A DNA stretch of 64,000 bases from Pseudomonas mendocina (GTDB taxonomy: Bacteria > Pseudomonadota > Gammaproteobacteria > Pseudomonadales > Pseudomonadaceae). The notes beneath the pieces were generated by a model that saw nothing but the letters and a program-made list of their open reading frames with translations, had not been told where the DNA came from and searched no databases. The stretch covers positions 2,170,001 to 2,234,000 of the forward strand of contig CP148074.1 in NCBI GenBank assembly GCA_037482215.1, written 5' to 3'. How positions within the stretch are numbered: position 1 is the stretch's first letter; each line of letters starts with the position of its first letter. A program made the translations under genes and the position numbers. Positions 14,593 to 19,165 of this stretch are shown one piece after another.

Positions 14593-14650
14593 TTTGTTTC
14601 TTTTTTGGTAAGGCTGTGGTGCTAGTGAATGCACTTCTGAGGGTTTGCAC

Positions 14651-15019
14651 ATGAGACTTACACCGTTTGGAGAGGCTTCAAGGCTGCTTCGAATGAAGTT
14701 CGACCTTTCACTGAAGGCGATGGCTGAGGCGATGAGCATCAGTTCCGCCCACTTGAGCGGTATCGAATATGGCGAAAAGCGGCTTTCTGATAAGCATGTT
14801 GAGTCCGCAATAGATTTTTTCAGGCCCATGGTGAGTGAAGACCAGTTGATGGATTTGCAGATAGCCGCAGAGCAGTCGAAAGATATTGTGAACACTGCGG
14901 AACTGGATGCAGATGCGCGGGGGTTGGTGGCTGCTTTTGCCAGGAGGCTGCAGGAGGGAGCCGCTCCTTCTGATGAAATCAGAGAGTGGATTAATGCACG
15001 AAAAGGCAGAGGAGAATGA
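14651..15019 (+). CDS. XRE-family transcriptional regulator (ImmR-like)
   Basis: A 122-aa protein with an N-terminal helix-turn-helix (LRMKFDLSLKAMAEAMSISSAHLSGIEYGEKRLS) and a helical C terminus. ATG 14651 follows GAGGG at seven bases; a TTG two codons upstream is less likely. It is followed by an ImmA/IrrE metalloprotease gene, the arrangement in which the protease cleaves or inactivates the regulator (ICEBs1 ImmR/ImmA is the known case). It probably represses its own promoter through the palindrome at 14575-14592. Confidence 0.85.
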   Translation: MRLTPFGEASRLLRMKFDLSLKAMAEAMSISSAHLSGIEYGEKRLSDKHVESAIDFFRPMVSEDQLMDLQIAAEQSKDIVNTAELDADARGLVAAFARRLQEGAAPSDEIREWINARKGRGE

Positions 15020-15022
15020 GCA

Positions 15023-15619
15023 TTGACAACGCTCTTAACTAGCGTAGGGCCTAAGAGCCCTTCAGGCCTTAAAGTTAAGGCACAGAGCTACGCTTCGCTT
15101 GAGGAGGTAGCCGACGGAATTAGAGGGGCGCTACCTCTGCAGCAGGGACAGCCATTCAATTTGGACTGCAAACGTATCCTCGAAAAGACGCTACCTCAGG
15201 CTGGGTTTAACTACAAAATTGTGGAGAGTGTAGACCTAGATGAATGTGCGGCTTTCACGATTCCAGAAATGGAGTTGGTAGTGTTTCGTGAGGATATCTA
15301 CGAAATGCTCCAAAGAGATAACGTCTTTGGGCGCAGTACTGTTGTGCACGAAATGGCCCACATTGTACTGAAGCATGCCGTAACGCTCAGTCGTGGAGCG
15401 CAGCTCGGCAAACACAAATTTTATGAAGATTCCGAGTGGCAGGCTAAAGCGTTGACAGCAGCGATTATGATGCCAATTCAGGCATGTAGAGAGGCAGCTG
15501 GAAAGCCTGCTGTGCTTGCAGAAATGTGTGGAACTAGTGTGCAGAGTGCAACGTTCCGGCTGGATAACCTCGTTAGGAATGGAAGAGTTGCGGGACAGCG
15601 GCATCTGTTCTGGCAATGA
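15023..15619 (+). CDS. ImmA/IrrE-family metallopeptidase
   Basis: A 198-aa zinc protease with the HExxH motif H109-E-M-A-H113 inside VVHEMAHIVLKH and the downstream acidic helix EDSEWQAKALTAAIMMP, standard for ImmA/IrrE. The start is a TTG with GAGGAG nine bases upstream, four bases after the regulator's stop. In known systems the protease relieves repression after DNA damage. Its target could be the neighbouring XRE protein or the CI-type repressor (inference). Confidence 0.9.
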   Translation: MTTLLTSVGPKSPSGLKVKAQSYASLEEVADGIRGALPLQQGQPFNLDCKRILEKTLPQAGFNYKIVESVDLDECAAFTIPEMELVVFREDIYEMLQRDNVFGRSTVVHEMAHIVLKHAVTLSRGAQLGKHKFYEDSEWQAKALTAAIMMPIQACREAAGKPAVLAEMCGTSVQSATFRLDNLVRNGRVAGQRHLFWQ

Positions 15620-16742: not shown

Positions 16743-17438
16743 CTATAAATATTTAACCAAAAGAATAATTCCGATCTTTGACTTAAATAAGTATTTTTTA
16801 AGGATGGTGCCTTTCACAGTGCCTTCATTTAAAAGTTTTTTGAATCCTGGAGTCATTGCCTTATTGATATAACCAATAACCACGTTGTTGTGCTCAACTT
16901 TGATTGCGTTCTCATCATGCTCGTTGTTCTCATCCAGCACGAATTCTACCGCATCCCCTTCGGCAATATTGTTCTGTGGTTTAACGTAGTGATGTGCACC
17001 TGACAACTCGATAATGAAGTCTAAGGGTGCTTTGGCATCAGTAAAGTCCGGGCATAATTCGAATGTATCGCTTGCGAGGCGTGCCCCTGTATAACCCAAT
17101 AGCGAGAAAGGTGAGCCTGAGAAATTCTCTGGCAAATTGTATTGCCCTAGATATTCGTTGAAGTCCTCTCGCTTTCTTGGCGGTATTCGGCGCAAGAAAA
17201 CATCTAATGCCCTTGGCTGCGATTCTGCTTTGCCGTCTTCGAAGGCAGGAAACTCATGAAATCCTTCATTTAAGGCTGCCTCAAAGTCGACAGTGCCTTT
17301 TAGGTATCTAAAAAAGGCGTCGTCACCTTTCCGAATTAGCTCACCAACCACCCGCCGATGACGAGGTTTGGTTTCATCAGAGTGATGCCAAACAAGCAAA
17401 AGTCGTGATGGCTCATAAATATGTTCGATTACGCTCAT
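16743..17438 (-). CDS. HipA N-domain-like/HIRAN domain protein
   Basis: A 231-aa protein. Residues 1 to about 105 (LLLVWHHSDETKPRHRRVVGEL… FLRRIPPRKREDFNEYLGQY) resemble the N-terminal subdomain of HipA. The C-terminal ~95 residues are a HIRAN domain (IELSGAHHYVKP…GDAVEFVLDENNEHDENAIKV…IGYINKAM), which in HLTF binds 3' DNA ends. It overlaps the upstream kinase gene by four bases (ATGA), so the two products are made together. AT-rich composition suggests recent acquisition. This split HipA with a DNA-end sensor could be a toxin/antitoxin or anti-phage pair. Confidence 0.75.
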   Translation of the reverse strand: MSVIEHIYEPSRLLLVWHHSDETKPRHRRVVGELIRKGDDAFFRYLKGTVDFEAALNEGFHEFPAFEDGKAESQPRALDVFLRRIPPRKREDFNEYLGQYNLPENFSGSPFSLLGYTGARLASDTFELCPDFTDAKAPLDFIIELSGAHHYVKPQNNIAEGDAVEFVLDENNEHDENAIKVEHNNVVIGYINKAMTPGFKKLLNEGTVKGTILKKYLFKSKIGIILLVKYL

Positions 17439-18409
17439 GCCAGTTTTTCCATAAGTAACACTGCGCGCCTTTTCGTCAGTTTAAGAATAAAACCAGCACG
17501 CTCTGGGGTGAGATTAGCACCTTCTAGCGTCTGGATGGCAACCATCTGATCGAGAGCCGCCTCAAGCGCAGAAAAGTCAAATTTCTTAAGCTTCTTCAAC
17601 AGGAGTGATTTGACCTCAGGGAGCTTTTCAAGCAGGTCAAAACCACTAAGATGCCCGATTCTGTCGGACGACTTCCGATTGTGCCGGAGGTGGTGTCGAC
17701 CTCTGTAGATGTATCTGTCTAGTGCAGGCTGATCCCATTTTGTGAATTTTGATGCGAGCAGCTCGTGCGCTAGACTGGTTCCGTTGTCAAACCACGGGGC
17801 AAATCGCCACTTGATATCAAATTTTTCTCCACGTCGCCTGGCGACGCTTTTCGAAACTTCAACAGCTCTCAATATATGCCCCCAGTTATCTTGGTGGCGA
17901 TCAGTGTTTCCTATGAGAGCGTCGAAGAGCATCATGCTCCAGAATTCATATATTTGATTTCTCCCAAGTACGCGGTTATTAAATGAATCGGCATCAACTA
18001 TGTTGTGCTGTGTGCCCTTTTCTCTGTCAAAGTCAGGAATTATCTTGTATAAGAAATTACCTGCAGAGAAAAATGACTCTTTACCTTCACTATAAAACCA
18101 TGGGCTGAGTGCGCCGCTTTGGTTCTTTGTAGAGTCTATAGCTGCATAGCAAGGAGGTGCGTTAACTTCAAGTAATACTGCAATTTGGTAAGCTATTATT
18201 TCGGCCCAGTATTGTTCTGGGTATTTTTTATCAGAGCGCTTAAACATGTGTCGCCAATCGGGCTGAATAAAATCTTGCTCAGGCTCCAAAGGTGAAAAAA
18301 CAGTTCTTTTAGGGCGCGCGCCCTCAGGGTAAGCAGCTGAGAACTCCGCATCTTCAGGCCAGTCTTTAATATCAATTACGACGTCTTGTACTCTGATTGT
18401 AGATACCAA
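17435..18409 (-). CDS. HipA-like serine/threonine kinase lacking the N-subdomain
   Basis: A 324-aa protein with HipA C-domain catalytic features: LFDALIGNTDRHQDNWG (D170, D174) and FAPWFDNGTSLA (metal-binding D208). In HipA toxins this kinase phosphorylates a translation factor or tRNA synthetase. The usual N-terminal subdomain is missing and appears to be supplied by the next gene, as HipS is for HipT. No HipB-like gene is adjacent; the nearest DNA-binding protein is CI. The start is TTG 18409 with AGGGAT upstream. AT-rich. Confidence 0.8.
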   Translation of the reverse strand: MVSTIRVQDVVIDIKDWPEDAEFSAAYPEGARPKRTVFSPLEPEQDFIQPDWRHMFKRSDKKYPEQYWAEIIAYQIAVLLEVNAPPCYAAIDSTKNQSGALSPWFYSEGKESFFSAGNFLYKIIPDFDREKGTQHNIVDADSFNNRVLGRNQIYEFWSMMLFDALIGNTDRHQDNWGHILRAVEVSKSVARRRGEKFDIKWRFAPWFDNGTSLAHELLASKFTKWDQPALDRYIYRGRHHLRHNRKSSDRIGHLSGFDLLEKLPEVKSLLLKKLKKFDFSALEAALDQMVAIQTLEGANLTPERAGFILKLTKRRAVLLMEKLA

Positions 18410-18451: not shown

Positions 18452-19165
18452 CTATGTTCTTGCTTTGCTCGGCGGCACAATCGCCCCAACGTAGTGAATG
18501 TGTTCTAACTTCTCTGCTGGGATCGTACGTCTACCATACGCATCATTGATCGACATGACGCTGATTTCGGTGTCGTTTGCGTAAAGCAGCTCCTTGAGCA
18601 TGTTTTCACCATCAGTAAGACGAATCATGACGTACTCACCTGGTACAACGCTGCGGTTTGGCTCAATCACTGCGATCCATCCTGAGCGGATAGCAGGGGC
18701 CATGCTGTCGCCTCTTAGGCGAAGTGCATAAGCGCCTGGATCGCTGGACGGAACGTCCACAACTCCTTCGCAGTCATCCAGTCCTGACCAGTACCCCTCT
18801 GGCCCCATTTGCGCAGTGCCAACGATCCTGACTGCCCGAAATTGGGAGGTAATTGGTGGGCCTGGCTCGACGGTTGATGATGCATCAGCCATCCGAGCAA
18901 TTTCTTCAGCCAACCTAGGGCTGAAGTCGCTAACAGGGACTTGTAAATAGCGAGCAAACACTGAGGCTGCTTCAGCATTCAAAGCATTCTTGCCCGTCAG
19001 GTAGTGGCTCGCCGCACTCTGGGTTTTTGCCTTTAAGCCCTCGATCGCGATTTTTTCCTGGGTCACTCCAAGACTTTTCTTCTTCGACTTATAGATGGCA
19101 TTGAGCGCCGCGCATTCGCGAATCTCAAGGTCGGTCAGTGGGCGTTTTTTCGGGTTCATATTCAT
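18452..19165 (-). CDS. CI-type repressor, LexA/S24 peptidase family
   Basis: A 237-aa prophage repressor. The N-terminal helix-turn-helix (SLGVTQEKIAIEGLKAKTQSAASHYLTGK) is followed by a linker and a S24 domain with catalytic S154 (RGDSMAPAI) and K191 (NMLKELLY). It should self-cleave with RecA after DNA damage, probably near VGTAQMG, although no classical Ala-Gly is obvious. It is divergent from cro with the operator cluster between them and probably also acts at 13883-13938. Confidence 0.93.
   Translation of the reverse strand: MNMNPKKRPLTDLEIRECAALNAIYKSKKKSLGVTQEKIAIEGLKAKTQSAASHYLTGKNALNAEAASVFARYLQVPVSDFSPRLAEEIARMADASSTVEPGPPITSQFRAVRIVGTAQMGPEGYWSGLDDCEGVVDVPSSDPGAYALRLRGDSMAPAIRSGWIAVIEPNRSVVPGEYVMIRLTDGENMLKELLYANDTEISVMSINDAYGRRTIPAEKLEHIHYVGAIVPPSKART

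Follow-up and report, generated by a model that had tools for sequence, protein, structure and literature searches.

A hipIN-type kinase and HIRAN-partner gene pair beside the repressor of a Pseudomonas mendocina prophage

The window analyzed here is the 64,000-nt stretch of Pseudomonas mendocina DNA designated CP148074.1 2,170,001-2,234,000, and coordinates given without further comment are positions within it. Next to a prophage repressor gene, the window carries two overlapping genes; one encodes a small HipA-type kinase (HipI) and the other encodes a protein (HipN) in which a HipS-like domain is joined to a HIRAN domain. Based on domain architecture and profile matches, this pair is an additional prophage member of the hipIN group, modeled in PADLOC as PDC-M03. 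The hipIN modules were defined by Gerdes, Baerentsen, and Brodersen in 2021 as a small kinase, HipI, followed by HipN, which consists of a HipS-like region and HIRAN, while the fused form, hipL, was called monocistronic (PMC8262856). In that description HipI is placed in main clade XI, HipN is named a putative antitoxin (HipS being the antitoxin of HipBST), and the role proposed for HIRAN is to recognize the ends of phage DNA and thereby switch on the kinase, with abortive infection as the outcome (PMC8262856). As the architecture was defined in 2021 and is represented in PADLOC, the window pair is not a new system. The novelty suggested by an earlier, sequence-only reading of this DNA is therefore not sustained, and the system is known by description rather than by experiment. 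PDC-M03 is itself a computational, two-gene phage defence candidate, and its name was not found in the open-licence literature. The present analysis adds the co-occurrence of kinase and partner, the repressor-kinase-HIRAN gene order, the loss in one branch of the Arg equivalent to R71 of HLTF, and the adjacency of a DEDD exonuclease gene.

Domain architecture of HipI and HipN

HipI is assigned to CtkA/HipT by profile, and positions 5-310 of PHROG 26212 match it with an E-value of 2.7e-55. About 29 residues lie ahead of the GAR loop; the core kinase motifs are present and N-subdomain-1 is absent. The alignment used to assess conservation (A2) includes 37 homologues out of 120 listed, from 577 found. 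In all 37, the catalytic loop retains N168, D170, R171, H172, Q173, N175, W176, and G177, and residue 174 is Asp in 31 and Glu in 6. These motifs and the Pfam HipA_C match agree with the sequence-only reading of a split HipA-type kinase core that lacks the N-subdomain. Fold family and motifs lead to the expectation that HipI has kinase activity of the Ser/Thr type, as in HipA/CtkA. Elsewhere in the same genome, a 437-aa frame and a 454-aa frame, each the size of full-length HipA, also match HipA_C (contig positions 4704670-4705377 and 4652968-4653630).

The predicted structure of HipN (pLDDT, the predicted local distance difference test score, 91.2) places a HipS/HipA N-subdomain ahead of a HIRAN domain, in agreement with the fusion proposed from the sequence. 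PHROG 26212, a 547-position profile annotated "unknown function", covers both genes and runs collinearly across their junction. The ATGA overlap of the two genes, noted at the outset, is a stop/start overlap that is kept in two relatives (L006 and L007; L numbers denote loci of the survey described below). The A-run that precedes the junction in the window is not kept in either relative, so a programmed frameshift joining the two genes was rejected and translational coupling is favored; the two genes are probably coupled in this way.

Features of the hipIN-type pair and the adjacent repressor gene (positions in the window)
Feature	Position	Strand	Evidence
hipN-like gene, 231 aa, HipS-like domain and HIRAN	16743..17438	-	PADLOC PDC-M03B 8.3e-31; PHROG 26212 positions 317-533, 9.9e-37
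HIRAN domain, HipN residues 136-231, H149 at HLTF R71 position	16746..17033	-	
HipS / HipA N-subdomain-like domain, HipN residues 10-131	17046..17411	-	
ATGA stop/start overlap of kinase and hipN-like genes	17435..17438	-	
hipI-like gene for a 324-aa kinase without N-subdomain-1, TTG start	17435..18409	-	Pfam HipA_C 1.4e-7; PADLOC PDC-M03A 2.1e-33
Kinase Mg-binding DNGTS motif, residues 208-212	17774..17788	-	D208, N209, and G210 the same in 37/37 aligned homologues
Kinase catalytic loop, residues 168-177	17879..17908	-	Alignment of 37 homologues
CI/S24-type prophage repressor	18452..19165	-	Pfam Peptidase_S24 5.6e-16; PHROG 4 repressor 1.5e-30

The window pair shares with hipIN a small kinase without N-subdomain-1, a downstream HipS-like and HIRAN partner, and the gene order, and both have proteobacterial members; the assignment is by architecture, as the tree described below was built from sequences collected here rather than from those of the paper. 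Two differences are that the kinase is 3 aa longer than the upper end of the published range for small kinase families (279-321 aa; PMC8262856) and that the branch to which the window belongs lacks the equivalent of HLTF R71. Both adjacent genes match the corresponding PDC-M03 models, A and B. HipL matches the pair in its three domains and their order, with collinearity maintained across the junction, but is one protein, whereas the window has two overlapping frames. Similar to the window pair, HipBST (7ab3) and Legionella HipS-HipT (8ezr) combine a kinase without the N-subdomain with a separate protein that carries it. In contrast to the window, hipBST is arranged in the order B-S-T with a helix-turn-helix (HTH) gene (PMC8262856), HIRAN is not described for HipBST, and in the window the kinase gene precedes the HipS-like gene and the upstream HTH gene is the CI/S24 repressor. 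HipA of hipBA has its own N-subdomain and is preceded by hipB. The distinction from hipBA and hipBST that had been drawn earlier is thus upheld by gene order, by the placement of the subdomain on a separate protein, and by the CI/S24 repressor upstream.

Distribution and genomic context of the family

The repressor gene lies 42 bp upstream of the kinase gene on the same strand, and the three genes may share one transcript. The pair has the lowest GC content of any equal-sized stretch in the window (0/312 as low), so that the earlier description of an AT-rich pair beside a prophage repressor holds. The surroundings include RecT (PHROG 148) and a gene similar to replication-initiation genes, which together indicate a prophage, and 29 phage records, all of Pseudomonas, share DNA around the pair. 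No terminator-like site was listed on the strand of the pair between 16500 and 19600 by a scan that performs at chance level, and sites in the promoter and terminator scans were no more numerous than in shuffled sequence. On the opposite strand (14645-15619, +), an HTH gene (Pfam HTH_3 1.2e-4, just under the cut-off) precedes a gene for an ImmA/IrrE (M78) metallopeptidase-like protein; near the repressor, these two may represent a second regulatory or toxin-antitoxin-like pair.

A contig scan queried with the single protein returned one locus only, and an alignment would have been preferable as the query. A kinase-pattern scan of viral contigs yielded 43 loci, not all of them independent, and a HIRAN partner is present in every one: 15 are fused, 27 are split, and one is split with the partner cut by the contig end. 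The protein search provided 34 full-length fused rows (alignment A3, from 120 listed of 322 found), some identical to viral-contig proteins, and the start Met of the partner is retained inside the fusion proteins. Among 398 genomes of the host genus, a full-length partner was found in 3, one of which is the genome that contains the window, and 6 further genomes match part of the partner, chiefly the HIRAN region.

The kinase tree was built from sequences found here only, in 43 rows that comprise 36 of the 39 representatives described below (L055, L057, and L059 were omitted) and 7 fused database proteins. One group of 34 rows (100/100) mixes fused and split forms, and 9 split rows, including a Clostridioides phage copy, stand apart from it. 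The fused label (15/43 rows) requires 2 changes, and 0/500 shuffles were as low, a result aided by near-copies. The window belongs to a group of 7 split rows (100/100) and is nearest there to L005 (100/99), a locus that reads like L004 of Stutzerimonas xanthomarina. At L005 (4929-7445), a HipA_2-like kinase (Pfam 6.9e-5, below the cut-off) lies between a CI-like gene and hipIN and overlaps a PHROG 14695 protein that is DUF3037-like by eye, such that a single immunity region appears to contain two Hip-type pairs.

The neighborhood comparison that the sequence-only reading had proposed was carried out on 39 representatives (11 fused, 28 split), which were obtained by clustering 52 kinases at 95% identity. 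Five repressor queries were used, and the Gram-positive-type loci (L082-L089, L002) were inspected less closely. In 6 of the 28 split representatives (the window, L020, L006, L022, L071, and L076), the gene immediately upstream, in the same orientation, encodes a CI-type repressor, with gaps of 14-103 nt. In six more, a repressor is found within about 4.4 kb, either upstream (L005, L075, L078) or downstream on the other strand (L062, L068, L069); the calls for L068 and L069 rest solely on similarity to L071. A repressor-query match at L007, a 147-aa frame about 3.5 kb downstream, was left uncounted, as it just precedes a UmuC-like frame (by eye) and is more likely UmuD-like. In the Clostridioides phage phiCDKH02 (L002 4875-6485), genes for a HipA domain and a HIRAN domain lie between ImmA/IrrE and integrase genes, in the lysogeny module. 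Just upstream of the kinase, the distantly related loci L007 (3555-4193) and L078 (5277-5897) share a PHROG 3989 gene ("unknown function") that weakly resembles NAD-dependent DNA ligases.

A second type of neighbor is a DEDD exonuclease gene, which ends 3-19 nt upstream of the module in 13 of the 39 representatives. These comprise all 11 fused forms, in contrast to the window, and two split ones; examples include L048 (5440-5991), L065 (5437-5991), and other P2-like viral loci. Two of these exonucleases were scanned, and both are Rv2179c-like (6.8e-57 and 5.1e-50). The flanks that were read are those of P2-like prophages, in which the exonuclease-Hip cassette sits between a replication gene and a portal gene (by annotation or by eye). 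Of 5,426 Escherichia coli genomes, 61 carry the exonuclease linked to hipL and equally 61 carry the entire cassette, at identities of at least 99%; these equal counts suggest that the cassette probably belongs to one prophage lineage, and it is counted as one event. The exonuclease family occurs in 648 phage records, with matches to over 80% of the query in 596, compared with 2 phage records for the kinase, so the linkage was rejected as a general phage feature. In the two of the 648 records inspected besides phage 899, no neighboring Hip gene is annotated, but the exonuclease lies right at the record start in one and near the record end in the other. A nuclease partner for the window pair was also rejected, as Rv2179c-like matches lie at three places in the genome and none is in the window.

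The HIRAN pocket, a proposed mechanism, and its alternatives

Residues 136-231 of HipN share the fold of the HLTF/Rad5 HIRAN domain and, like it, have Asn and Asp at positions 172 and 175. The cavity of HLTF HIRAN, with Y72 and Y93 at its border, fits one single-stranded dinucleotide (PMC4666394), and the R71E substitution in HLTF blocks binding to 3'-OH ends (PMC11366124). A profile alignment, with numbering anchored on these residues, places HLTF R71, Y72, Y93, and D94 at H149, H150, H174, and D175 of the window protein; His thus occupies all three of the R71, Y72, and Y93 positions. Across the 35 aligned HipN rows (A1, from 91 matches), Asn172 is the same in 35/35 and Asp175 in 34/35, position 150 has 19 His, 15 Tyr, and 1 Phe, and position 174 is variable. 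Importantly, the 21 rows nearest to the window (itself counted; one has Lys) all lack Arg at position 149, but Arg is found at the equivalent position in 14/14 more distant HipN rows and in 34/34 fused HipL proteins. Loss of the R71-equivalent Arg weakens a literal 3'-end-sensor reading for the window branch; its pocket appears to have changed, making a simple 3'-end sensor less likely there than in HipL. Of the earlier proposal of a kinase gated by a DNA-end sensor, the HIRAN-gated kinase remains plausible, and the specific 3'-end sensor is weakened.

The reading we favor, with a confidence only slightly better than even, is that of a prophage-borne hipIN-type module in which HipN restrains HipI until HIRAN detects a cue of infection or DNA breakage, and the freed kinase then arrests growth to the benefit of the lysogen. 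The HipS-like half of HipN would supply in trans the N-subdomain missing from the kinase, and probably docks on it to hold it off as HipS does HipT, as suggested by fold, co-occurrence, and natural fusion. The HIRAN half would read a nucleic-acid cue that arises when another phage infects or when DNA breaks, altering this docking and freeing the kinase. Growth would then stop through phosphorylation of a host target, which, by analogy with characterized HipA kinases, may be an aminoacyl-tRNA synthetase. Placement behind cI hints that the pair is expressed in the lysogen, as for rexAB of lambda, and such expression may protect against superinfection.

Several points weigh against this reading. 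The Arg residue is missing from the window's own branch, and 22 of the 28 split representatives have no repressor directly upstream that was found with the five queries. Residence on prophages is in part a product of the choice of a viral collection for the search, and in one relative, L019 (G333), inspection by eye of 19 kb revealed no prophage gene. The structure of kinase and partner was modeled for a fused relative in place of the window pair; inhibition by HipN, sensing of DNA, and the protein targeted by the kinase are each inferred; and no experimental test of hipIN or hipL, in the window pair or a relative, was found in searches of the open-licence literature, judged mainly from listings.

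The same anatomy, with its two-gene overlap and adjacent repressor, would also fit a toxin-antitoxin module for addiction or lysogeny maintenance, wherein HipN neutralizes HipI, the kinase acts upon prophage loss or HipN decay, and HIRAN serves autoregulation or DNA localization rather than infection sensing. The role of HipS as antitoxin in HipBST (PMC8262856) is consistent with this alternative. However, the kinase gene comes first and the putative antitoxin gene second, an order that suggests coupling rather than antitoxin excess, a Pfam scan of HipN found no HTH, and the fused forms at 15 of the 43 viral loci are unable to lose the antitoxin separately. On balance, a toxin-antitoxin role is considered rather unlikely.

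A different ligand is conceivable as well. In Gram-positive bacteria, deoxydinucleotide-specific DEDD nucleases (diDNases) adjoin HipA and HIRAN genes, as do about one-third of the diDNase genes found in the two main contexts described in a 2025 study (PMC11706625). Taken together with the dinucleotide pocket of HLTF and the exonucleases next to the module in P2-like prophages, this linkage allows a reading in which HIRAN-coupled Hip kinases sense short single-stranded deoxy-oligonucleotides or dinucleotides. The ligand would be the short products of DNA degradation by phage nucleases or host enzymes, the kinase would be freed through loosening of the HipS-like contact, and adjacent nucleases, where present (diDNases in Gram-positive bacteria, Rv2179c-like exonucleases in P2-like prophages), would set, reset, or tune the signal, with the Pseudomonas-type branch as an altered-pocket variant without a dedicated nuclease. 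This is judged improbable, as the window pair has no adjoining DEDD nuclease and has His at both tyrosine positions, and the exonuclease family is far commoner in phages than the kinase. Finally, the low GC content and the rarity of the partner in the genus would suit a degenerate remnant without function, but the frames are intact, the catalytic residues are invariant, and both genes are also intact in relatives at 60-75% kinase identity, leaving this explanation very improbable.

Implications for hipIN and hipL modules

The hipIN and hipL modules are predicted kinase modules carried on many prophage contigs, and, if the favored mechanism is correct, they would combine a kinase toxin and nucleic-acid sensing in one small unit. 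Simple material for the hypothesis put forward in 2021 is available in the window copy and its close relatives, and also in the fused proteins (about 547 aa) of enterobacterial P2-like phages, including those of E. coli. Loss of the Arg in one branch and linkage to a nuclease in another lead to specific predictions about the ligand, which may be the most interesting point of the system.
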